NCBI GenBank assembly: GCA_025765595.1
Contig: JAIVFH010000001.1
Coordinates: 496,001 to 560,000, forward strand
Origin: Obelidium mucronatum
Taxonomy: Eukaryota > Chytridiomycota > Chytridiomycetes > Chytridiales > Chytriomycetaceae
Direction of reading: 5' to 3'
Length of the DNA stretch: 64,000 bases
In this document: positions 6,858 through 53,435 of the stretch, piece by piece
Position numbering within the stretch: the stretch's first letter is position 1
How the letters are laid out: the number at the start of each line of letters is the position of its first letter
The notes under the pieces: generated by a model
The model's input: the letters and a program-made list of their open reading frames with translations, nothing else
What the model was told of the DNA's origin: nothing
The model's database searches: none
Translations under genes and position numbers: made by a program

Positions 6858-7089
6858 CGTGGACTTCCATGAATTCTGGAAGCGCCATGATGAATATGCC
6901 TTCTCGGCGCGTTACGGAACTTATCGGAAAATTAGCACAAACCGGAAATCTTGGTGATTTGGGACAGATAACACATTGTGTTCCAAATCACCAGGTGTGT
7001 ACTTCATCACAATTCACTTTACTTATTCAGTATGAGCTTTATTAAATAAACACATTGTGTTCCAAATCACCAGTACTCGAGAACACACG
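6858..7089 (+). repeat. 5' LTR of the copia element
   Basis: 232 bp, identical to the copy 4900 bp downstream. It contains a short inverted repeat (GGTGATTTGG...CCAAATCACC) and two copies of AACACATTGTGTTCCAAATC about 90 bp apart. These may act in transcription or termination, but that is inference. Confidence 0.93.
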
Positions 7090-7153
7090 GATTAGGAGTC
7101 TTAACCCTCCATTGAGCGACAAGAAAAAAAAACGAAAAGAGACGACTACGGCC

Positions 7154-10100
7154 ATGACATACACCCTCAAGAGAGGGCAGAGTTTTGAACCACTCACGAC
7201 CCAGAACAAGAGCTATCATTCGGTTTCCTGGCTTGCAAGTGTAAGATCAGCAGTTAACAAGAACAAGCTAGAAAAGGCCTACTACTACAAACCAGCAATT
7301 ATCTCCTTCGACAACAGCGGAGCTGAATTTCAATCCACCAAGACAATCCGCTTATACTCAGATTTCATCGTCTATGAAATCCCTGAGCCTTCGGAAGGCG
7401 ACCCAATTTTCCAAAGCAATAACAGTTTCGATGAAGACAAATACTTCGAAGCATTCTCAACCTGGAATGAAGTATCATCAAAGATAAACGAAATTGTCAC
7501 TCCTCACCTTGACGCCACACTATTGGCCTCCTACAACTCCGCTACGGGATCAATCAAGGCGAGATTTGACGCTCTTGCAACCACTATAGCTTTCAACCCA
7601 GGCCAAGCCCTATCCAAAGCAAGAAGAGATGTTTCCACGGCCAAGAAACACTCTCACGAATCCAAATATCAATGGTTCACCCGCTTCAACCTCCTGAAGC
7701 TCAAGGCGCAAGAACTCGGCCAACCTGACGACGAAAACTGGAACAACGAATGCGGTTACACTCTAGTTTATGGCATTGAAGACCATGGCCAGAGAGACAG
7801 CATGAGAACCCAACTTACCGGATGTCCTCCAGACGATTACAAGGCCTTCGCCCGTATCCTGTCGGTCATTGCTGCCAGGGAAGAGGAAAAGCTTGCTCAA
7901 CCAGTCCAAGCCATAGCGGCCGCTGCAACTCAACAAACCGACCCCAGCATGGCCACCATGATGGAGTTAATGAAAGCAATGGCAGCCAGACTTGAAGGAA
8001 ACGACAAACCTAGACAACCGCGACCAGTCCCATCAGACAGAAAACCAGCTCAAATTGTGATGACAAAACTGGCCGGCGGGACGTCGATCCAACAGGTTGC
8101 GGAATTCTTCAAACCAACAAAACTGGCAGACGACTCTTTTGTAGCAGTGTCCAAGAAATCAGGTGGAACATACGCCATAATCGTCTTGGAGAAACCATTC
8201 ACAAGCCTGGATGTCGAAAAGTTAGTGAAGGAAAAGGATGGGAAGGTGTTGAACGGAGCCGAAATAAAGGTGGCGAAAGCTACGATGTCCGCTTACATCT
8301 CTGCTCCAGTTTCCGAAAACAAGTCCCCAGCATACCTTGACTCAGCATGCAGCAAATCGATGACGGGTGACGTAAAACAACTGTCAAACCAGATAGTTGG
8401 ACCAACGATAGCATATGAAACGGCATCAGGAAATAATATCCAAAGTGCCGGAATCCAAGGGTCAATGAACTTCGGCGAGTTTGAAGTTGACCAAATCCAG
8501 CTAGTACCCAAAGCACCAGCAACTCTCATTGCAGTCGTCAACCTATTAAAAAAGGGCTACGACGTCTGGTTCAACCACGTCGACAAGAAGGTAGCAATCG
8601 GCCGCCTGGATTTGTCAGGTCCGCACAAAATACTAAAAAGCGTAGACGAAGAAGACGGAACATGGAAAATCAATACAATACCTGCGGATCAAGCACTACT
8701 AGCAAAAGCCTTCATTGGAAAAGGAATCCCCAGCGAGAAGAGCATCCAATTGTGGCACTCAAGATTCATGCACGCGTCTCCAGACCAAATAATAGAAACT
8801 TCGAAAGTGGTTCACGGGCTTAAAATTGACGGTCCAAAGACCATCAAGGATTTCTTTTGCGAGGACTGCGTCCTAGGAAAAAGCCATCAGCAACCCTACA
8901 ACAAAAAGAAACCAAGAGACGGAAATATACTCTCACAAATATCTATGGACGTGGGTTTCCCAGGAAAAGGGGAAGACGGTACGACAAGACTAGGGAGAGG
9001 CGGGGTCATAGGCTATCTTGGAGTGAACGTTCACCGAACTCAACTGAGGCTGATGTTCAAACTTTTCTCCATGAAGATGGAGGAAGCCACCAGTATCATC
9101 CTATGGGTAAAAGACATGTTAGAAAGAACCACCGGCGAAAAACTGCAAGAAATATACTCTGACCAAGGAAGTAACTTTACGGGATCCACATTGAAGGACG
9201 CCTGTCATGAGGCCGGAATTCGGCTCATCACAACATCAACCGGCGCGCACAACCAACACGGGGAAATTGATGGATGGTTCCGAACCGCAATGGACGGAGT
9301 CAGGGCGACTCTATCTGAAACCAAAATGCCAAGGGACCTATGGCCGGATCTCTTGGAGTGCAAATGTCATGTTTGGAACAGATCAAAACACTCATCAATG
9401 CCACTCACCCCATACGAAATGACTTTCAAGCGCAAGCCCACAGTATCAGATCTCCGAGTCCCTGGATGCTTAGCATACCCTTTCATTCCAGGAAGCGGGA
9501 AGACCCAAGACAGAGCAAGAAGGGGACGTTTCATCTCCTATGCCTATCCTGATGGGCAGACAAACGCGCAACGGGGATACAGAATTCTCTTTGATGACAA
9601 CAGCACGGTTGTTAGCAGAGACGTCTTCTTTGTCGAGAACCAATTCGATGTCGAGAACCCGAAGACATCTATGGAAAAGATTCAGTTAACTCAATACAAC
9701 AATAACCACGATAAAGAAGGATGGGATGAAGACGAAGACTTCGTCAACGCAAAGGAAAATGTACAAAAAAAGGAAAAGATCGAAGAAGAAATTGACGGGA
9801 TGGAAGTCGAGAGGAGTGTAGCGGAGCTGGAAAACATTATCCAGGACAACGGAATGGACATCCAAGCCATGGACATGGAAACTCACCAGGAAGACTCAAG
9901 ATCCAACTACGAACCCCAAGACGAAGACATGTCAGAAACATCCTCTATTTGCAGCGACGCACCAAGCACCACATCCCTACCACCCCTCGACTCCAGCAGC
10001 ACTCCATCTCCACCACCAACTCCTCAAACTCCACCAAGGCGGTCTCCCAGAGAATCGAAACCACCAAATCGGCTTGCCCTCTTTGCCGGACTTGCGAGAC

Positions 10101-11857
10101 TTGACGACAACACCGGATACATGATCCACGAACCAACATTCCTAGCATTCATTGCCTTGAAAAGAGGCCTGGCATTTGGAACCATCGACGGACCAAAGAA
10201 CATCAAAGAAGCGTTGAAGGACAAAGAGTGGGTGGCGGCCATCAACGAGGAACTGGACCAATTCACGGAGAAGGCATCTTGGAAACTCGTCGAAGCAGAA
10301 GCAGGACAGCACCTATTAAATACAATCTGGGTGTTAAAAATCAAAGTCGACGAAAGCACAGGATCGAAGAAGAAGAAGGCGCGTCTGGTCATCAACGGCT
10401 CCAAGCAACTCTCCAGCGAATATGACAAAGTATTTGCCTCGACCCCATACCACGAATCAGCAAAAATATTCCAAGCCATTTGCACGCATCTTGGCCTCCA
10501 CATGTCGAAGGGGGATGTAAAGGGTGCTTACCACAACTTGGACATCGACAAAGTAATCCACATCAGAATCCCGCAAGGAATGCAACTAGGAGAAGAGGAC
10601 AAAGGAAAAGTATTGTTAGCCTTAAAGGGAATTTACGGCCTAAAACAAGGGGCTTACCTCTGGGAGTGTCTTAGAAACGAATTCCTCGCCGAGTATGGAT
10701 TTGAAGAATGCCCCGGATCCCCATGTCTTTTCAAAGCCATATCAAAGAAGACAGGAGGCATCATGTACACTCTTTGGCATTCCGACGACGGAAAGCTTGG
10801 CTGCCAATTCAAGGAAGACACCCTAGAATTTTGGAAATGGTTAGCTTCCAAAGTCGAAGTGAAATGGCAAGAAGGAATCGGAATGTGGGCTGGAATCAAC
10901 TGCGAATACCACAAGGGATACTCTACCATGGACCAGACAGTGTACATTCAAAGCATCATTGACGAATTTCTGGAAGAAAAATATTTTTCGGGAAACAAGC
11001 CAATTTCAAGATCGACTCCATGGAACTCAAAATTGGAAGACACTTTCGATACGGACCAACCAACTCCAAGTGAGGACATTGCGTTCTTCGAGGGGAGATG
11101 GATGAGACTACTGGGACTACTACGATTCGCATGCCTCACCAGAGCGGACATCATTGAAACTCTAGGCAGATTGTGCTCCTATGCCAACAACCCCAACAGG
11201 ACCCACTGGGCGGCAGCTCAACATCTACTGCAATACCTAAATGGATCCAACACGACGAAGCTGTACTTCAAAGCGAACACGAACATGATACTGGAAGTAT
11301 TTAGTGACGCGAACCTGGCTGGAAACAAAGTCACAAGGAAGTCGACCTCCGGAATTGTAATGATGTTGGCTGGCGCAGCAATAGCTCCAGTATCAAAAAG
11401 TCAAGATATTGTAACGGACTCCACAGTCGCATCAGAGACATTGGCGCTAGCAAGCGGCGGAAAGATCGCGGAATGGGGAAGAAACGTGATGGAATGGCTG
11501 GGATTTCCACAGCCGAAGCCGACTGTATTGCACTGTGACAACGCCGGAGCCGTGAGAAACACTCAGGAAGGGGCGGACAGGCACAAGACAAAACACATGG
11601 ATACGAAGTATATGTTGCTACGATGTATGGTGAAGAGGGGAGTTATTGAAGTGAGGAAGATCCACACGTCAAGAAATGTGGCGGATGTGATGACGAAAGG
11701 CCTGGGTAAAAGTAAGCATGGAGACTTCACGTGCGAGATGGGCCTGTTCAAGGGGAGCGTGGACTTCCATGAATTCTGGAAGCGCCATGATGAATATGCC
11801 TTCTCGGCGCGTTACGGAACTTATCGGAAAATTAGCACAAACCGGAAATCTTGGTGA
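7154..11857 (+). CDS. Copia gag-pol polyprotein
   Basis: Start chosen at the first ATG (7154, MTYTLKRG); about 1567 aa with no stop. Domains in order: a Gag/UBN2-like region (about residues 60-260); a protease with active site LDSACSKSMTGD (DSA rather than DSG/DTG); a gag-pre-integrase zinc domain (LWHSRFMHAS, then CEDCVLGKSH); and an integrase core with the D in SMDVGF, the D in YSDQGSNF and the E in HGEIDGWF. The reverse transcriptase follows with HSDDGKL at the catalytic box, where YxDD is usual, and then RNase H (VFSDANLAG, ASETLAL, HCDNAGAV). The frame reads 33 codons into the 3' LTR before stopping. Gag and Pol are in one frame with no frameshift, as in many copia elements. Confidence 0.95.
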   Translation: MTYTLKRGQSFEPLTTQNKSYHSVSWLASVRSAVNKNKLEKAYYYKPAIISFDNSGAEFQSTKTIRLYSDFIVYEIPEPSEGDPIFQSNNSFDEDKYFEAFSTWNEVSSKINEIVTPHLDATLLASYNSATGSIKARFDALATTIAFNPGQALSKARRDVSTAKKHSHESKYQWFTRFNLLKLKAQELGQPDDENWNNECGYTLVYGIEDHGQRDSMRTQLTGCPPDDYKAFARILSVIAAREEEKLAQPVQAIAAAATQQTDPSMATMMELMKAMAARLEGNDKPRQPRPVPSDRKPAQIVMTKLAGGTSIQQVAEFFKPTKLADDSFVAVSKKSGGTYAIIVLEKPFTSLDVEKLVKEKDGKVLNGAEIKVAKATMSAYISAPVSENKSPAYLDSACSKSMTGDVKQLSNQIVGPTIAYETASGNNIQSAGIQGSMNFGEFEVDQIQLVPKAPATLIAVVNLLKKGYDVWFNHVDKKVAIGRLDLSGPHKILKSVDEEDGTWKINTIPADQALLAKAFIGKGIPSEKSIQLWHSRFMHASPDQIIETSKVVHGLKIDGPKTIKDFFCEDCVLGKSHQQPYNKKKPRDGNILSQISMDVGFPGKGEDGTTRLGRGGVIGYLGVNVHRTQLRLMFKLFSMKMEEATSIILWVKDMLERTTGEKLQEIYSDQGSNFTGSTLKDACHEAGIRLITTSTGAHNQHGEIDGWFRTAMDGVRATLSETKMPRDLWPDLLECKCHVWNRSKHSSMPLTPYEMTFKRKPTVSDLRVPGCLAYPFIPGSGKTQDRARRGRFISYAYPDGQTNAQRGYRILFDDNSTVVSRDVFFVENQFDVENPKTSMEKIQLTQYNNNHDKEGWDEDEDFVNAKENVQKKEKIEEEIDGMEVERSVAELENIIQDNGMDIQAMDMETHQEDSRSNYEPQDEDMSETSSICSDAPSTTSLPPLDSSSTPSPPPTPQTPPRRSPRESKPPNRLALFAGLARLDDNTGYMIHEPTFLAFIALKRGLAFGTIDGPKNIKEALKDKEWVAAINEELDQFTEKASWKLVEAEAGQHLLNTIWVLKIKVDESTGSKKKKARLVINGSKQLSSEYDKVFASTPYHESAKIFQAICTHLGLHMSKGDVKGAYHNLDIDKVIHIRIPQGMQLGEEDKGKVLLALKGIYGLKQGAYLWECLRNEFLAEYGFEECPGSPCLFKAISKKTGGIMYTLWHSDDGKLGCQFKEDTLEFWKWLASKVEVKWQEGIGMWAGINCEYHKGYSTMDQTVYIQSIIDEFLEEKYFSGNKPISRSTPWNSKLEDTFDTDQPTPSEDIAFFEGRWMRLLGLLRFACLTRADIIETLGRLCSYANNPNRTHWAAAQHLLQYLNGSNTTKLYFKANTNMILEVFSDANLAGNKVTRKSTSGIVMMLAGAAIAPVSKSQDIVTDSTVASETLALASGGKIAEWGRNVMEWLGFPQPKPTVLHCDNAGAVRNTQEGADRHKTKHMDTKYMLLRCMVKRGVIEVRKIHTSRNVADVMTKGLGKSKHGDFTCEMGLFKGSVDFHEFWKRHDEYAFSARYGTYRKISTNRKSW

Positions 11858-14005: not shown

Positions 14006-16420
14006 TCATCTTTTGATGTTGTCAGAACTTTTTGCTCCGCGAATAATTGGCGATCCAGCAGCTGCAAAACCCCCCGACTCCGCCCGCAAACTTTCGTTTG
14101 ATTTACTAAGGGGTCTTCCAGCCTCGTTCGCCATTACTTTTAGAAGGAAGGGCTGGAAGTTGATTGTCTCTGCCGAACCAACCACCTTCTCTCCGTCCTT
14201 CTTTGAATATGCACCAGGCGTCGATACCAAAATCGCGGATTTACTTCCTCGAAGTCCTGAAAGATCTTGCTTTGAACCTCCCTTCTTCTGGGACAGAGAT
14301 GCTGTTGTCTTTCCGGTATCTCCAGAATTCTTGACAACATCATTCACAAACCAATGTGCCGACAGAACTTTTATAAAGTCGCAAATATGGCTTCCAAACT
14401 GAGTTTGGGAACTCGGAAGCCACACAGCCAACTGTAAAAAGAGTTTGACGAGCTGAGCGGCTGTATCCAAGAAGGAACCTCGGACATCGCAGCTAAGAAT
14501 ATACGATAGCTTTGCGTAAGAATCCCAGGATTTGTCTGTATTGTTGACGTGTTTCATGATGGCGGCACCAAACAAGACAGAAATAAGTGCATTGATGAAA
14601 ACCTTTAGGAGTTAGTTAGTCAAGGATTTTTAATATTCGACCACAAAAAATTTAACGCATAATATATTTTATGCTTACATCCGCCGCGATATAAACCGAC
14701 TGAGCGTCTCGACTAAATTTGACAGCACAGCGGTCAAGCTTGGGAGCAGTCAAAGTTGTGCCAATATATGGGAATGTCACTGCAGAACAAATAACACAAG
14801 CAAGTAAGACTCCATGGCAGACCCACGGACGATTCTGATACATGGATTGGAACTTGATGTATTGTAACCACCACACGCAGAGAATCACAGCTTGAGAAAC
14901 AAATCCAGAAGCGTATTGTCGCCAAGTGCAATCCACCAAGAAGTGCGGTGCAACGTTAAACACGATAATAATCAAAGTTCTTGTGATCCACAGTAAAAGC
15001 TGAATGATGTTCGCAAAGGTCAGCCAACTTCTTCTTGGCCTATAGAGCTCCACCGCTTGGTATAAAAAGATGGTCGACATTCCAAGAAAGATTCCCTGCA
15101 AGGGTAAAATGAGAATCCCGAAGGAGTGAGAGCAGAAAAAAGGAGAATTTTTAGTTGAATGGAAGGGAAATAGCCGAAACGTAAATCCTCCTCCGCGAAA
15201 ACAAACCTGCATCATGATGGATGCCGCAAAAACAATCAAATCTTGCTGCACGATTTCCAAAACCGTTGTAAGGTTCTGAGAAGGTTGAGGAGAAGATTCC
15301 ACATAAGTTTTGGTCGTGGCGGCAAATGGAGTTATATCCGTGACAAGACCCCAACAAGTAAATCGAATCGAATCGGAAAATTCAAAATACCAGTTGCCGT
15401 CTTTCAGCATGGACCGAAAAGCATCGAGCCTGTAGGTTGTGTTTTTGAAAACTCCTTGCAACACTTCCTTCAAATAAAACTCGCGCGCGTCCAAGTATTT
15501 CTCGAGCCAAATGGATTCATTCGTGGTGGAGCGAGGAGTTTTAAGTCTTGCAGTTGCGTTTTGGGCGATTTGTTGGACGACAATAGGGCCAAGCTGGATA
15601 CTCGAGTCAAACAGTTGAGCGATAGCAAGAGGTGACGTGATATTAAACTCTTCAAAGTAAGACTCGATCGGTTCAAAGTATTGATTTTTCTGAACTTGAA
15701 GTTGTGCTTGTTGAAATAATAGGTCCTTTGCTGATGCTTCCCAATCAGTGCAAAATGTCTCCAGCCCAGGAGGTGTAAAACGACCCTCCCTGGGACAGTT
15801 GTTGAGACCAATGGCGTTTTCAAGCAGCCTTGTTTTCTCTCCCGATGTTTGTGTATATTTGGAGCAGAACGTTGTTTTGTTCTCACTCAAGTGGTTGTAA
15901 TCCTCGCAGACTTTCAACACAGCGCCTTGACACGTCTTAAATGAAGCGAATCCTGCTGAAATTCCTTGGCCGTCGTTTTCGGTGGAGCAGTAAGCATAAG
16001 GCCTTTCGGTAATCACAAGTTTTTTTTGTTAGTTTCAACACCAAAAAACAAAAGGAGATTCTTGATTCAGTTACTTACAAATCAAGCTGGGCCTTTTCAA
16101 AATAAGATGTAAGCTTGATCATTATTATGTATTGGCAATCGTTCATGTAAGCTGTAAACGTATGAGCCGAACAGTTCGTGCCCAACTCCTGCAGTAATCC
16201 GGTCGCCAAAACAGGAAGGTCTCTTTCTGTCGTACAAAAGATATTTAATCAACTGTTTGCGACGCAATAATATGCAGCGTCTGATCAGGGAACTGTTAGG
16301 TCTGGGAATACCTTGCACCAACACTTCTTCCAGAGACAGATCGCGTTTCCACTCAGGTTTCAGACCAATCGCTTTCACCATTAGAGTCACCAGGGAGCTG
16401 AAGAGAAGTATCAAGAGCAT
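14006..16420 (-). CDS. GH46-type chitosanase fused to a seven-helix membrane domain
   Basis: Five exons (16312-16420, 16079-16226, 15207-16002, 14679-15095, 14006-14602) splice into an in-frame 688-aa protein. A signal peptide (about residues 1-17) precedes IGLKPEW, shared with the paralogues next door. The GH46 chitosanase domain follows with the general-acid Glu in TSYFEKA (about E80) and the second catalytic Asp in NDGQGISAG (about D96). The FQQAQ...YFEP and SPLAIAQLFDSSIQLGP blocks and YRLDAFRSML also match the family. From about residue 335 there are roughly seven hydrophobic helices, then a Ser/Lys-rich cytosolic tail of about 110 residues. Intron 3 is a multiple of three, so reading it through would be silent in frame. 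The fusion suggests a chitosan-sensing receptor or a membrane-anchored enzyme. Confidence 0.82.
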
Positions 16421-20425: not shown

Positions 20426-21548
20426 TCAACAACCAAATTGCTTAGAAGAACTTCCTTCATCATCCAAAAGAATCGTAACAGAGTTCCCTTTAAACCACAA
20501 ATGGTCATGAATCTCTTCCTTGTTAAACTTTGAGCGATCCAGCAATCTTGTAATCGCTTCCACGCGTAAAAGAGTGTGATCAAAAGGAGCTTTGGATGCT
20601 ATGAGATACTGTCTTCGTTCGTTCAGCAAAGATGCGAGCCAACGCGCTTCATCAATCTCTTGGCGGGATGCAGGACTCCCCCCAGCCATACGTGTGGCAC
20701 CTAGAGCATGCAAAGAAGCTGCTCCCGAGCCCAACTGAATGGAAATATCGAAAAGCTGAGAAATCGCGAGTGGACTTTTGATGTTGTATTCGTTGGCCAC
20801 TTTTGCAACTGATTCGAAAGCCGTTGTACCGTGGACCATCATTTGAGCTGTGCTGAAATAATCACGGTCATACTTGATTGCTGCAGACCAATCGGCACAA
20901 AAGTTTGTGAGGCCGGCAGGAATAAAGGCCTTCTTGGCTTCAGTGGAGAAGCATAGTTTGTTATGGACGGCGTTGTAGAGTGGCCCGTTTTCGTCGTTAG
21001 TGCTACTAGAGCCATCGCTTTCGCTTGAGTCATCACGCGCGGAGCTGCTTTTCAAGTAAGTGGCGCAGAATGTTGGGGTTTTGGATGTGCTGAGAGTTTG
21101 ATAGTTTCTGCAGACTTGGAGAATACTTCCGGAACAACTGGTGAACTGCGAGAGTCCGGCTGTTAAACCTTGGCCGTCAGATGTTGCTTCACACGCGGCA
21201 AACTGATCATAGCTGTTATATTTTGGGTTATTTTTCCTTTTGTCAGATGAAGTTTGAACTCAACAAATCAGCGCTGGGATCTTCGAAATAAGAGGATAGC
21301 TTCAGCATAATTGTATATTGACAGTTGCTCATAATCGGTGTGATCGTTCTAGAGCCTTGAGAGTCACGGGCGAATAAAGTGCTGCTATCTATTGCATGGG
21401 TTTCCAAACTATCGCGCTCGAGCAACTCAACAACCGACTCCGCAACAGCTTCTTTAGAGACGCGTATTTCTTTCCATTCTGGCTTCAGAGCAATTGCTGA
21501 AATATATTCTACAGAAACAGCCAGGCTGATGAGAGTGATGATCTTCAT
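20426..21548 (-). CDS. Secreted GH46-type chitosanase, tandem copy 5
   Basis: Two exons (21265-21548, 20426-21212; 52-nt intron) give 356 aa from the ATG at 21548, chosen because it begins the hydrophobic signal (MKIITLISLAVSV); an ATG 12 nt upstream is possible. IALKPEW follows. The catalytic Glu is in SSYFEDPSADL and the catalytic Asp in TSDGQGLTAG. A Ser/Asp/Asn-rich insert of about 25 residues sits between the Asp motif and FIPAGLTNFCADW. PLAISQLFDISIQLGSGA and LRVEAITRLL follow. This is the most upstream copy of the array and may be the founder, but that cannot be decided here. Confidence 0.84.
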
Positions 21549-22835: not shown

Positions 22836-24189
22836 TCATTTCTTATTCGCCTTCCATCTTGGAGTAACAATAAACCATCTCTTTCTGCGCACAGTTTTCC
22901 AACCTTTGGTCAACCAACCCCATGGAGTTCTTGGATGCTTGTTACCTGCACATATAGACGAATAAACCAAAATTGCAACAATAAACACAACGGAAGACAT
23001 ACCTTTAGAGTTACTTCCACCACCGTGTGGGTGATCACACGGGTTCTGCGTAATACCTCTGACAGATGGTCGAATACCTCTTCGTCTGCGAGCACCAGCT
23101 TTACCCCAATTCGTGTGATAGTGATCCTTGTTTCCTACAACACCAATTGTAGCTGGGCAATCCACGTGCACAATACGGACTTCTTTACTTGCCAATCGAA
23201 TCTGAGCAGTCTTTGTAATCAAATCTGTTGCAATCAATTGAGCACTGGTCCCCGCACTTCGACAGAGTTGAGCAGGTCCATGTGGTTTGAGACCAATGTT
23301 GTGAATCAAGGTACCAACGGGAATATCGCGCAACAATAAACAGTTTCCGGGCTGAATCAGTTGGTTACGGGCGATTCCAGCATGTTCAAGACCAAGACCT
23401 TGACGGTAACTATATACGATCGATCCTGGTTCGGTTCCTTGGCAGTGGACCATGTAGCTGAATTCGTTGGTGCTGAGGTTACGGAGCAAGGCAAGATCGG
23501 CACTTCTGTTTGGGTCATATTCCAGGCGAACAATTTGATGAGGACCCGGCGTTGTACGCATAAAATCTACGGTTCGAACGCGACGCTTATGACCTCCACC
23601 TGTATTTTTGCTTTTGTTGAGGTGTTGTCCTTTGAAAAACTCATTCGTCATTAAATGCATACCCTTGTGGCGCATAGTAATACGCCCAGATTCGTTACGA
23701 CCACCAGTACTTCTTTTTCCGTAACTTAGACGTCGAATACACGAGCCCTTGTGATCATTATTTTCAGGACAATCCAAAGGAGCTTCTTGAAAACACAGAA
23801 AAACCACAAAAGATAACACACCTTATGTAAATGGAAACGAGTCGCATGTCTTCTGTTTCTGCAACCAGGAGACACTGGTTTGTACACCTTCATGCCGTTG
23901 CTGACTTTCCAGAACCGGTTCTCAATCACGTTGACCTGGGTCTCCGGCACCGGCAGACCTTGCTTCTTCAGCTTATCCACGAATTTAAAGTATCTCCGCT
24001 TGTGGTTTTGACATGTTTTTGCGGAAAGTCTTGAATCTCTTTTGCGACGAAAGAAGCGGGCGAAACAGGGACGATTGTGCCGATGTGCGAGTTGACGTTT
24101 CTGGACAGAGTTGCCAGCGATCGCTGCGGCTGGCCCAAAAGGGCATTCGCAGCCGTGGTTTGGCTGAGCTTCAGTCTCAGCGCAAACAT
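22836..24189 (-). CDS. RML2: Mitochondrial large-subunit ribosomal protein uL2m
   Basis: Conserved uL2 blocks are clear: SYGKRSTGGRNESGRIT, HKGGGHKRR (split by a 63-nt in-frame intron), PGPHQIVRLEYDPNRSADLALL, IPVGTLIHNIG and the signature VRGITQNPCDHPHGGG, whose second His is essential for peptidyl transfer in bacterial L2. A further intron follows SNSKG before the C-terminal basic tail. From the ATG at 24189 the N-terminus looks like a mitochondrial presequence (LSQTTAANALLGQPQRSLATLSRN), so a mitochondrial isoform is inferred. One base appears missing near 23985-23990 (TTTAAATTC): the frame changes with no splice sites available, probably a sequence error in a housekeeping gene. Confidence 0.9.
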
Positions 24190-32648: not shown

Positions 32649-35600
32649 TCATACAAGTGCGACCGCTTTAAGAGAGCGTCTGTCGTTAAAACGGTTAAAT
32701 AATTTATAAAATTCAAAAACTGGCAAATATCTTACGTTAAAGCGGCGGAAACAACGGATTCAAGCACAACTTTCATGTTTTCAACATCAGTGGCCTGTAT
32801 CAAATGGACGTCCACTTTTCGTGAGGGGACCTGCTCCAAAAACTTTTTCACAATGAAGTCTCTGGTATCGTCATATGAATTTGGAACACCTAAGATGAAA
32901 AAGTCTTAACGTCAATAAACTCAGTTGTGAGAAAAGTGTTGAAGAATTGGCCCTCACCCTCATATTCCGGTAAGTACATTTTAATGGAGCGAACGTTGAT
33001 TTTCTGTTTGAACAAATCAACTTTGTTTAGAAATAGAACTGTTGAGGCGTTGGCAAGAGCTGCATGATTACAGATCTTGCCAAACAATTCGATAGCAAGT
33101 AACACTGAGTCCATAGTTAGTGAATTAAAACAAGAGAATATAAGAGATTCAAGGAAGTTTAATAGTTACATTTGGTTGTTCCACCTCCATCGCCTTGGAG
33201 CACTTGATCATAGGAGCCAAGGGCGGCAACAAAAACAATTACCCCAACGTCCTCAAACAAATGCAGCAATTTTTTACAGTTTCCCTTCTGACCGACTATA
33301 TCCAGAACTTCAACCCTTGTTTGATTTATAAACAATTCAGGTTGTGAATTTGAAGGCCCGCGAATATAAGCATGTATCATATCCGTTGAGGTGGGAAGAT
33401 AGCCAGGAGATGTGATTCTTTGAACATGCGAGAACAAACTTGAAGGAAAGCGAATTAAACAACTGTTAATCAAATGCAGCATTGTTTTCTTGATCTCACT
33501 CACTATGAACAGGAATCAAGTTGATCATCACTACACTGGCTATAGCAATATTGAACGCCCAAATCATCCCAGAAGATTCGAACAGCCGCTGCCACTTCCG
33601 AAGAAACTTTAAAGCCATGAGAAAATTGCCTGAAAGTAGCTTCCGACTGAAGTATTTTTACGGCATCTTCAACCGTGAGCATTCCAGCTCGACTAGTCGC
33701 CATCGCCTTTTGCTCATTAAGTAGAACATGATTTAGGATAGGCATTGCCTCATGATCAAAATTTGGTTGTTCTTGAATGCTCCCAAGCGATATTCGGGAT
33801 CTGGACATTCCATACGGCGAAGGAGACTCTGGCCGAAGAACGGTTTGAGTTATTTTCAAACCCGATCGAACCGATGTTGTGGGAGAGTCTTTGGGGGAAT
33901 CTTCATTCGCTAAATTTTCCAAGTCTATTCCACTCGATGTGGATGACTTGTGAGATGATTTCGGCCTTTCCAGCGAATTGTCAGGAGATAAGTGAGATGG
34001 GACTTCCTACGACATGAGCGGAAGATTTAATTGCTTCAACTGGTGTGGATGATGACCTTTTTCTTTGTTTGAACTTATCATTTGGAGCGACCGTTGGTGT
34101 TGCTGTAGTTGTTGCTGCTTTGTATTGCTTCCCAACAGAATTGGTTTCATCCATCTCAGTTAATCCACCATTTGTAGAACCTCTCTCAAAAAATTTATCA
34201 GGAAGACACTCGGATTTCAAATCCGAAGTGGGTCTTGAATTATTTGGCGAATGTCGCCTTTTTTCTGGTTGAGGTAAACTCCGAATGGATTTCACGGGTG
34301 GAGACATTAAATCAGTACTCTTTAGTGACTGGGTTCCTGACTTTGAAATGGATCTTTCGATAGAAGTAGACGTTGGTGGAGTTAAAATTTTTTCTGCTTT
34401 TGGAGGGTTGGATGGATCAGGGGAAAAGAAATTGTGCAGAATAACAGCAGGGGATGACTGTCTTCGCGAAATGAAATCACTTGATTCCGGTTCACCTGTT
34501 TCAAAGAAATATCCCTTCAATTATACTTGAGAAGAAAAAAGCGATTCTGTGTGATTATTATTTACCAGCTCGTTTCGTTGATGACTGTTGTGAAACAGTC
34601 GATGGTCGCTGGCCAAGTTCTTTCCCGACAGTTTCCCTAGCCTCCAGTTTCGCTTTATTAACCTCGTCCTCCTCTTTGATTTTTGAAGCTAGTTTGGCCG
34701 CAATACTGGCCGTCGATGACCTCCGAGCCTTGGATTGAATTGAAAACGTCCTCTGTAACGATATTTGAACCGACTTGGCGGCTTCCTCCGATTCTCTATT
34801 TGATGACGATGACGCCTCAGAGCGGCCCAAAGAAGATGATAATTTGATTTCATTTGAGTCGGTTTGTGAAAGATATTTGGCTTCGACAATAGATGATCGC
34901 CGAATCGTTGCCTTTTCATAAATACTTACAACAGAATGACGCTTGGACTGAATAGAAGACTGCCTCTTCAGACTTGTAGCTGAAATATTGTTTGGTTGTT
35001 GCGATGGAGACGGCTGTTGTTGATCTGCATGATATTGAGTTTCAATAATAGAGGACCTCCTAACAGCCGCCTTTTCTGAAATGCTTGCAACAGAATGCCT
35101 TCGTTTTGATTGTATCGACATGGTAGCGATTGAAGGCCAGATGTTGTTGCAACCCCTGGCGATGCTTCTAAAATCAGTTTCTCAGCATTGGGAATATTTG
35201 TTGACTCGGCAGATGATTGTTGTTCTGCAGTGGCGTTGAGAATCGACAATGGAGGACCTCCTGAAAGATGCTTTTTCAGAAACACTCGCAACCGAGTGCC
35301 GACGTTTAGACTGTATAGACATGGTGCGATTGAGGCCGGATGTTGTTGTGACAACTGGTAGAACCACGTCTACCAACACTCCCTCGGCACTATACTTTGG
35401 CCTCCACAATACTAGACCTCCGCATCTCGGCCTTCTCCAATATACTTGCAACAGAAGTCCCTCCTTTTAGACTGAATAGAAGGCCCTCTTTTCAATTCAG
35501 TGGCTACGCGATCGACCGCTGATATATCGGACGAAGGAGAACGCCCTATGTTGGCCATATTTTTTGATTCGGCTTCAGCTGTTGTGCCATTATTATCGGT

Positions 35601-36585
35601 CCAAATGACTGGAGGTACTGAAGCTTCGGCGACACTCGTAACTGAATGCCGACGTTTTGATTGAATTGAAGGCCGTCTCTTCAAATATCCCGCACCATCT
35701 GGATCTGTCTTCAATGGGATAGGTTCCGCGTATTCGATTCCAGGTTGTGGCAAGGATCTTGCATGCTGAATTACCGATGGAACTTGAAGTACCGGCGCCA
35801 CCGAGCTTTTCTGCTCTATAATAGATGACCTTCGAATCGCAGCGTCTTCAGTGACGCTGGCAACTGAATGTCGACGTTTGGATTGAATTGAAGTATTCCT
35901 TTTCACCAAAGCAGCTGCTTCGGGTTTCAGCAAAGGAGTTTCGTGGCTGGTTGAGTTTCCGGGTTCTCCTGATGATGGTGTTGTTGCGATAGAATGCCTC
36001 CGGCTCCTGGTTGTGCCTGCCCCCAACACGTCCGTTGCCTCCAGAAACTTGAGCGGCGGTACATACTTCACTTCATTGTATTTTACCGCCTCGGAAGACG
36101 CGCCGGATGCTTTTGCTCCGCCAGTAGAAGGTTGCCTTGAGAGAGACTGCTTCCGTTTAGACTGAATCGAAAGAGTTCGCTTCAATCCATTGGCAGAAAT
36201 TTCTATAGAAGGAAGTGTCTGTGACGTTTGATGGCCGTACTGGATGTTTAAAGTGTCCATTGCTGAAATAAGGGTTTTCACGTTGTCCAGCAGATTCATG
36301 ATGATTGCTTTCCGATAGACTTCCACCTCTTCATCCGAAAACGAAACATTGTGAATCATTCTTAGCTGCTTTAAGACGGTGGACTTTCCACTGGCAGCAG
36401 GTCCTGGAATAAGATTTTAAAAAAAAAAAAATGAAGAGAACACGTTGAAAATTACCCAACAACAACATCTTGACGTGCTTCCTTTTCCCAATTTCCATCC
36501 TCTCGCGATCGAGCTCTTGATCGATCAATCTGCTGTTTTCCACAGCCTCCGAGTTGTTTGCAGGAGTTGACGTTGCACAACCCAT
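32649..36585 (-). CDS. Divergent G-protein alpha subunit with a giant phospho-repeat insertion
   Basis: Starts MGCATSTP (G2 myristoylation, C3 palmitoylation type). After an intron the P-loop reads GPAASGKST, then LKQLRMIH and helix alpha-A (EVYRKAIIMNLL...AMDTLNI). An insertion of about 780 residues follows (about 36230-33830) with eight repeats; alpha-B then resumes at LTVEDAVKIL and IFWDDLGVQYCYSQCSD. Switch I is degenerate (HAYIRGPSN for RARVxTxGI), switch II is DIVGQKGNCKK for DVGGQRSERKK, and NKVDLF is intact. The TCAT loop is IQATD and the end is SLKAVALV. Total is about 1,200 aa versus about 355 normally. Several one-base frame breaks occur (near 35460, 35395, 35140 and 34008), each restoring the repeat or flanking sequence if ignored. 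Confidence 0.82.
34693..36185 (-). repeat. Eight degenerate SIQSKRRHSV...RRSSI repeats inside the G-alpha gene
   Basis: Copies at about 36138-36185, 35814-35906, 35622-35684, 35395-35495, 35242-35334, 35041-35121, 34882-34971 and 34693-34758. The consensus unit is LKRxxSIQSKRRHSVAS, about six residues, then EKAxxRRSSIVE, about 30 residues separated by variable low-complexity spacers. I count about ten perfect RRxS-hydrophobic sites (RRHSV/I, RRSSI), the classical protein kinase A consensus. Copies 4-6 are recognisable across frame breaks, which shows the indels are younger than the repeats or are artefacts. Confidence 0.85.
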
Positions 36586-51961: not shown

Positions 51962-52250
51962 TGTAAATTGCGCATGATTCTACAACTCTTCCATATTTAG
52001 ATTTATTCATTGAATAAAGACCGCATATAGACAGTATTTTGGTACATCCTAGAAATTTGTTCAGACTGGTCAATTGAGTTCAAGATATACCTTCCCTGAC
52101 CCTGACCCTGTATTCAATGAAGAAAACATTCATGCATTCAAAAAAAGACACTGGAAACCAGTCACATGTGGTTTTAATCAAATTGAGAACTTAATTGAAT
52201 TTTTGACAAGCATTTATAGACCCCAAATTTGTTCTCCAAAATCTGACACG

Positions 52251-53435
52251 ATGTTCAGAGTTAAACTTGCTTCCGTCCTTGCTGTAACCTTAATGGCTAT
52301 GACAGTACATGCTTCGGGATGCTACCCAGACTTCTCTCCAACTGGCTCATATCCTGTTGGGTCGCTGGTGGGATACCGAGGGGCAAACTTTGTAATGAAA
52401 GGTAGTGGTTGGGAGTTTCTCACTTTCTGTGATGTGGCTGCTCCCATTATCTGCTATGCACCCTATGAACCCACTGGCATTTACGGGAAAGGCTCTCAAG
52501 TGGGCTACCAAGGCCACAACTTTGTGTTGGTCTCCAACGAATGGAAATGGGCAGGTGCATGTGAAGTCTTCATCGAAGTTTCCAGTTCTACAACTACCAC
52601 AACTACTACCACGACCGCCACGTCGACCACTGAGTCGACTACCACCACCAGTGAGTCCACTACCACCAGTGACTCGACAACTACAAGCGAGTCCACAACG
52701 ACACCAACTACGACAACTACGACAACTACGACCACGACTACTGCATCTACACCAACTACGACAACAACTGCACCAACAACAACTACCAATGCGCCAACTA
52801 CAACTACAACCACTACCACCACTACCACCACTACCACAACAAAGACCACGACAACATCAGCAACAAGCACCGGAAAAGTCAAGCCAGACTGCAACGTAAT
52901 TGCAGGAATCACCAGCAACTTCAAACTCACCAATGACCCTGCTGCGGACATTGTAGCCCTCTCCAACCAAATCCGCCAATACGTTGGCTCTGTAATCAAC
53001 CTCCAAATGCCAACCGTCACATGGAACGCCGCCATCGCCCAAGGAGCCGCCGAACACGCACAAACCACAGTCAACAACAAATGCTCACTCACTCACAATA
53101 CAACCGCAAGCGCGTTCTTCCCCAAATCCGTTGGTCAAAATTTGTACATGCAATACGGCCGTGGCAGCGATGTTGGCAAGAACTATATCGCGGCTGTGGC
53201 GGGTTGGGTTAGTCCTACTGAATGTAACGGGTACAATTCAAAGCAGAGGGGTGTGGATACGTTCCATACGTGGGGTCATTACTCGCAGGTGAATTACCCA
53301 ACTTCCGTTCAGATGGGTTGTGCGCTTGTTGGGTGTCCAAATGGGTGGTTTGTTACAGCCTGTGATTACTATCCACCTGGAAATATGATGACTTCGAGCG
53401 ATACCAGCTCCATCATGATTGGAAACGGTTATTAA
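52251..53435 (+). CDS. Secreted CAP/PR-1 protein with CBM5/12-like repeats
   Basis: 394 aa from ATG 52251 with signal peptide (MFRVKLASVLAVTLMAMTVHA). Two carbohydrate-module-like repeats follow: YPVGSLVGYRGANFVMKGSGW and GKGSQVGYQGHNFVLVSNEW, each ending in an aromatic-Cys segment as in chitin-binding CBM5/12. A Thr/Ser-only linker (about residues 105-205, encoded by ACN repeats) leads to a CAP domain with IVALSNQIRQYVG, TWNAAIAQGAAEHA, SVGQNLYMQYG and the signature HTWGHYSQVNYP...MGCALVGC. CAP proteins are extracellular and often bind sterols or lipids. The repeats suggest wall or chitin anchoring. Intronless. Confidence 0.88.
   Translation: MFRVKLASVLAVTLMAMTVHASGCYPDFSPTGSYPVGSLVGYRGANFVMKGSGWEFLTFCDVAAPIICYAPYEPTGIYGKGSQVGYQGHNFVLVSNEWKWAGACEVFIEVSSSTTTTTTTTTATSTTESTTTTSESTTTSDSTTTSESTTTPTTTTTTTTTTTTASTPTTTTTAPTTTTNAPTTTTTTTTTTTTTTTKTTTTSATSTGKVKPDCNVIAGITSNFKLTNDPAADIVALSNQIRQYVGSVINLQMPTVTWNAAIAQGAAEHAQTTVNNKCSLTHNTTASAFFPKSVGQNLYMQYGRGSDVGKNYIAAVAGWVSPTECNGYNSKQRGVDTFHTWGHYSQVNYPTSVQMGCALVGCPNGWFVTACDYYPPGNMMTSSDTSSIMIGNGY

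Follow-up and report, generated by a model that had tools for sequence, protein, structure and literature searches.

The Saccharomyces cerevisiae G-alpha subunit Gpa1 is an active GTPase that carries an insert in its helical domain, near αA-αB, where it is phosphorylated and is not known to hold repeats. This insertion, a ubiquitination domain of 109 residues, has been described as required for trafficking to the endosome (PMC12483322). Plant XLG proteins are described with an extensive N-terminal domain bearing a cysteine-rich motif, and the same account mentions G-alphas of Dictyostelium, Naegleria and plants, some of which depart from the catalytic motifs, and lists 44 G-alphas for Naegleria gruberi, perhaps the most (PMC8584482).

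Here we describe a G-alpha gene of the chytrid Obelidium mucronatum that also bears a helical-domain insert. The Gpa1 insert is about one eighth the size of this one, and the two are likened by position rather than by sequence. The XLG proteins are enlarged G-alphas as well, but the extra part of the protein described here lies within the helical domain, and a short N-terminus with an MGC start, rather than an extensive cysteine-rich domain, precedes its P-loop. We know of no XLG protein or atypical G-alpha of Dictyostelium, Naegleria or plants that joins an array of kinase sites inside this domain to the loss of switch residues. A literature search found no paper on such a G-alpha, a weak test of absence from print in which the species-name search was swamped by general papers.

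The locus and its G-alpha scaffold

The window analysed is a stretch of 64,000 nucleotides within a 1.1-Mb contig (C1) of the O. mucronatum assembly (48.3 Mb, 694 contigs). The G-alpha gene occupies positions 32649-36585 of the window on the minus strand, from an ATG at 36585 to a stop codon at 32649-32651, and has six introns, all of the GT-AG type. Public annotation splits the locus into three proteins, P0005 (394 aa), P0029 (356 aa, hypothetical) and P0001 (301 aa), which carry spliced sequence wherever they span introns of the gene. Its features are as follows.

36456..36585, minus strand: exon 1, MGC...KMLLLG, with the predicted lipidation start and N-terminal helix; inside public model P0005
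36404..36455, minus strand: intron 1, GTAATT...TCCAG
36234..36403, minus strand: start of exon 2, with the P-loop GPAASGKST, α1 and αA, ending AMDTLNIQYG; P0005 matches PF00503 positions 2-85
33764..36233, minus strand: insert of about 800 residues in the αA-αB loop, interrupted by intron 2 and predicted disordered in its first part
34729..36170, minus strand: eight SIQSK units, first bases 36170, 35891, 35669, 35480, 35319, 35118, 34956 and 34743
34882..35834, minus strand: five RRSSI(I/V)(E/D) sites, first bases 35834, 35422, 35262, 35061 and 34902
34496..34565, minus strand: intron 2, within the insert, GTAAAT...AACAG, in agreement with public model P0029
33439..33503, minus strand: intron 3, spliced out in P0001
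33351..33377, minus strand: switch I, IHAYIRGPS, with the catalytic Arg and the Mg-binding Thr replaced
33288..33302, minus strand: switch II, DIVGQ, with Gln kept and the first Gly replaced
33105..33169, minus strand: intron 4, concordant with P0001
33010..33027, minus strand: guanine-recognition motif NKVDLF
32890..32957, minus strand: intron 5, concordant with P0001
32680..32735, minus strand: intron 6, concordant with P0001
32649..32679, minus strand: last exon, C-terminus RSLKAVALV and stop

The scaffold, taken with the insert left out, matches two stretches of 6oik, which is a G(o) alpha subunit (E=1.3e-57). The Pfam model of heterotrimeric G-alphas, PF00503 (length 333, cut-off 48.8), is matched along its whole length by two complementary halves in series on one strand, P0005 covering positions 2-85 (75 bits) and then P0001 covering 103-330 (193 bits). 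A structure model of the C-terminal half (22 sequences, moderate, pLDDT 71) retrieves G-alpha structures in Foldseek, the best match being 9p82 (E=1.5e-17, TM 0.61 on query). The protein begins with the MGxC signal MGCATS, for which lipidation is predicted, and it has both a P-loop of the form GxxxxGK[ST] (GPAASGKST) and an N/TKxD motif (NKVDLF). A sequence-only reading of this DNA had proposed a G-alpha scaffold interrupted between helices A and B, and of its landmarks the MGC start, GPAASGKST, αA, NKVDLF, QATD and SLKAVALV were confirmed.

If the annotation were right, the locus would consist of three separate genes, with P0005 as a protein of the N-half, P0029 as a protein of repeats and P0001 as a G-alpha of the C-half. 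These models stop or start at frame changes, with P0005 ending in misread repeat sequence and P0029 ending at a frame change; moreover, neither G-alpha half is a whole GTPase, and the Pfam halves complete one another. We regard three genes as hardly probable at all.

Elsewhere in the window, glycosyl hydrolase family 46 domains occur in two frames of the minus strand (14655-16028 and 20429-21259), which also has a frame of the ribosomal protein L2 type (22839-23822), and the plus strand holds a CAP-domain frame (52053-53432) and a frame of 1603 residues (7046-11854) with RVT_2, SH3_retrovirus and gag_pre-integrs domains, by which it is a Copia-type retrotransposon. No match to the window was found in a plasmid collection or in Rfam.

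The repeat insert and its reading frame

The insert comprises about 800 residues of the αA-αB loop, or 852-853 by the loop measure used for the paralogs, with a net charge of +34 over 852 residues. It contains eight units with a core like [KR]R-x-x-SIQSKRRHSVAS...EKA..RRSSI, the RRSSI part being present in five of the eight, and each unit has up to three R-x-x-S-hydrophobic sites. The earlier estimate of eight SIQSK units and about ten RRxS-hydrophobic sites held up, the counts being eight and 11. In 5000 shuffles of the 800-residue insert, these 11 RR.S-hydrophobic sites compare with a mean of 0.23 and a maximum of 3, an excess beyond chance of the sequence expected in a PKA substrate; the 19 R..S-hydrophobic sites, one of which spans a frame change, compare with a mean of 3.2 and a maximum of 10, and the 20 [RK][RK].[ST] sites with a mean of 4.1 and a maximum of 15. 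The structure predicted for P0005 is of low confidence (mean pLDDT 47, with residues 126-337 below 50), and this model of the N-terminal half is taken only as an indication of disorder.

The units have diverged at the DNA level far more than in protein. Over their pooled alignable parts, the eight differ by 0.85 at synonymous and 0.067 at nonsynonymous sites; since they had been picked by the SIQSK motif, divergence was recomputed on the seven codons that follow it in four units, giving 0.73 synonymous versus 0.033 nonsynonymous. The linkers preceding RRSSI are more variable (0.85 synonymous versus 0.26 nonsynonymous, five units). With silent sites near saturation and the protein nearly fixed, the cassette has long been held by selection at the protein level, and this codon pattern indicates that the repeats evolved as coding sequence. 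Neutral growth of the loop, with repeats spread by slippage and without function, could be read from the range of loop lengths, 16 to 207 residues, across the 33 other G-alpha models of this genome. However, Tandem Repeats Finder detected no DNA-level array in the insert at a score of 50 or more, and synonymous change near saturation is paired with a protein change of only about 3-7% in the unit core, which makes neutral growth very improbable.

No relatives with SIQSK repeats were found among the candidates scored in protein searches. With the full-length query, a search of about 5.8 billion proteins gave no match among 7989 scored candidates, under a length rule that shuts out the fragmentary public models. 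P0005 as the query gave seven matches among 7991 scored candidates; P0005 itself and P0029 represent the window gene, and the others cover only about a quarter of P0005 or less. Against its own genome, the N-half fragment has 51 matches, three of them within the window gene; the remaining 48 start from the end with the P-loop and all stop by residue 150 of 310, so the repeats were not found elsewhere in this genome.

As assembled, the gene cannot be read in a continuous frame: about five frame changes were found in the insert, near 35456, 35395, 35245, 35130 and 34000, four of them within about 330 bases. The sequence-only reading had missed these, along with the many paralogs that have a shorter loop at this position and the replaced catalytic residues described below. 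Splicing was considered as the cause of the first four and rejected, since the junctions of a frame-aware spliced alignment use weak donors (GTATTG, GTCAAC and GTTAGG) and the bridges delete or misread conserved repeat units. The change near 34000 could be a 64-base intron.

As to whether these changes reflect error or decay, 19 pairs of near-identical G-alpha copies were compared, with 'coding' following our own gene models. Frame-breaking indels, mostly of one base, numbered 14 and 8 in two C13/C350 pairs and 6 and 7 in the comparisons of C486 with C440 and C433; four pairs had many, seven had one or two and eight had none. The five pairs involving C1, the window contig, had three in all. 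The strong bursts thus sit in pairs with small contigs (C350 and C486) and the C1 pairs have few, so that no burst was seen on C1; the assembly search revealed no other copy of the window gene. Because bursts of one-base indels separate some allelic gene copies here, consensus error is favoured over decay, and the frame changes are more likely to be consensus errors than real. In view of the indel bursts of C350 and C486 against C13, C440 and C433, gene models on small contigs need care.

If the frame changes were instead real, the gene would be recently broken, either a young pseudogene or the source of only a truncated N-terminal piece. The frame changes of the insert, next to scaffold exons in which none was seen, fit such a history, as does the lack of a demonstrated burst on C1. 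However, about 390 scaffold codons are free of stops and frame breaks, and GT-AG ends persist in the introns despite long divergence. The insert pieces are open in their own frames and the units are conserved at the protein level, so that any breakage would be recent, and one-base frame-breaking indels separate allelic copies of other G-alpha genes here. We consider a broken gene unlikely, though it deserves serious weight.

Switch residues and the G-alpha family of O. mucronatum

In G-alpha-i numbering, the window gene has Tyr in place of Arg178, Gly in place of Thr181, Val in place of Gly202 (the first Gly of the GGQ in DxGGQ) and Ala in place of Glu43, and it retains Lys46, Ser47, Asp200, Gly203, Gln204 and NKxD. 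The switch I Arg and Thr and the DxGGQ motif of canonical G-alphas are thus altered. All 33 paralog models from O. mucronatum keep Arg178, Thr181 and Gly202 and have E or D at position 43, which leaves the window gene as the only one with all four residues lost; among 14 more public proteins (two from O. mucronatum), position 181 is Ser and position 202 is Ala in P0022, and the other 13 are intact there. In G-alpha proteins, hydrolysis becomes slower when Arg178 is lost, and without Thr181 both the binding of Mg and the active state are weakened. With both residues lost, an impaired switch is expected and an ordinary GTP on/off cycle is unlikely. Judged by its sequence, the protein is a G-alpha by descent and not a canonical GTPase. 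Lost catalytic residues would also suit a broken gene.

The genome has at least 147 exon-level G-alpha matches and, with likely alleles set aside, at least 34 G-alpha loci, many in tandem clusters (C1, C7, C13, C22, C25, C42, C66 and others). The 33 paralogs are what remains of 51 modelled rows after removal of 17 likely alleles, on contigs C488, C249, C139, C302, C367, C433, C486 and C350 as judged from pair comparison, and of one C-terminal fragment (C7:533780). Frame changes in the frame-aware paralog models recur at the same alignment positions and look like artefacts, so they were left uncounted and the allele comparisons used instead; the same models underlie the loop lengths, site counts, charges, residues and tree, so that individual residues or the length of a given loop may be in error. 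The αA-αB loop has 70-207 residues in 31 of the 33 paralogs, 26 and 16 in the other two, and 853 in the window gene, which by these lengths takes a trait of the family to its extreme. A tree of 46 sequences (without P0011, P0022 and C7:535209) places the window gene, with weak support (56), next to a clade (93) of a Siphonaria protein, a C13 pair and four C1 genes. The branch of the window gene, at 1.57, is the longest of the 46, another feature that a broken gene could have.

The best match from another species is the Siphonaria protein, HDU68_010816 of Siphonaria sp. JEL0065 (P0002), which shows 40% identity across 57% of the scaffold query. In the tree it joins the C13 pair (support 100) and not the window gene directly. 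Its loop lies in the same place as the window insert and bears FRRGSLLG, YRRGSLLES and RKDSST, with RRGSLL occurring twice, but it has 133 rather than 853 residues, and the switch residues are intact. Other chytrid G-alphas, P0004 and P0006 among them, have loops of about 115 residues at the same insertion point, with a loop end that is alike by eye; the loops of these two are acidic (net -14 and -17) and have one and no [RK][RK].[ST] sites, respectively.

Kinase-type sites were also counted in the other loops, with patterns and clade chosen after the data had been seen. In the seven loops of the neighbouring clade, R..[ST]-hydrophobic sites numbered 10 versus 2.9 in shuffled loops, [RK][RK].[ST] 9 versus 2.4 and RR.[ST] 3 versus 0.5, and in two of the seven none of these patterns occurs. 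For the 27 other O. mucronatum loops the counts were 5 versus 5.7, 12 versus 4.5 and 4 versus 0.6, three of these four RR.[ST] sites being in one gene, C7:535209, and 13 further public loops (two from O. mucronatum) gave 2 versus 1.9, 1 versus 1.1 and 0 versus 0.25. Basophilic sites are thus commoner than chance in the loops of this genome, and the kind followed by a hydrophobic residue stands out only in the neighbouring clade. A special link of the sites to that clade is not firm, because the other loops are enriched by two of the three patterns. A G-alpha loop with three ARRGT/GRRGT sites was observed at C7:533780-536379 and C249:23049-25217 (loci L051 and L054), where about 0.7-1.1 kb separates the switch exon from the C-terminal match.

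Proposed control of the protein by its loop

In the reading that we prefer, the locus is one gene for a membrane-anchored, GTPase-impaired divergent G-alpha that is governed by phosphorylation at many sites of its basic, disordered loop; we judge it about evenly balanced between right and wrong. The N-terminal MGC, if lipidated as we infer, should put the expressed protein at the membrane. The G-alpha fold, the phosphate-binding Lys and Ser and the guanine motif are kept, and the nucleotide state would probably provide no normal on/off switch. The αA-αB loop, mostly 70-207 residues in the family, would have been amplified to about 850 basic and probably disordered residues, at many of whose sites phosphorylation by a PKA-like basophilic kinase is expected. 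Phosphates at some 19 sites would come close to neutralising the net charge of about +34, and the result could be a graded switch at the membrane, acting electrostatically or through a phospho-reader.

The earlier idea of a G-alpha phosphorylated at many sites is strengthened in part, by the site statistics and by the small protein change among units at a large synonymous distance. Related loops with more basophilic sites than their shuffled counterparts point the same way, but the contrast between clades depends on the pattern used. A fuller history, which we put forward only tentatively and think somewhat doubtful, is that the protein gave up GTP hydrolysis and came to be controlled by graded phosphorylation at many sites of its giant basic loop, in a chytrid family whose loop was already a kinase target.

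The sequence-only reading had raised a feedback point in cAMP signalling as a possibility; the rival drawn from it is an ordinary active G-alpha that PKA phosphorylates for such feedback. The sites are of the PKA type, and the genome has 42 pieces that match class III cyclase domains as well as a single RIIa domain, which makes a cAMP kinase system plausible. On the other side, none of Arg178, Thr181, Gly202 and Glu43 is kept here, a loss that the 33 other models do not show, and nothing ties the cyclase and RIIa domains to the window protein; an ordinary G-alpha is in our estimate improbable. A feedback role in cAMP signalling is possible for the divergent protein that we prefer, and other basophilic kinases share the PKA-type consensus.

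If this reading is real, the helical domain of a G-alpha can become a phosphorylation module, and the gene offers a natural test of a G-alpha that signals although its GTP cycle is not a normal one. The gene also calls attention to a large fungal G-alpha family, of which the window member is fragmented in public annotation. Elsewhere in this genome, at C60:19061-25440, cyclase-domain pieces and the sole RIIa match share a stretch of about 6.4 kb.
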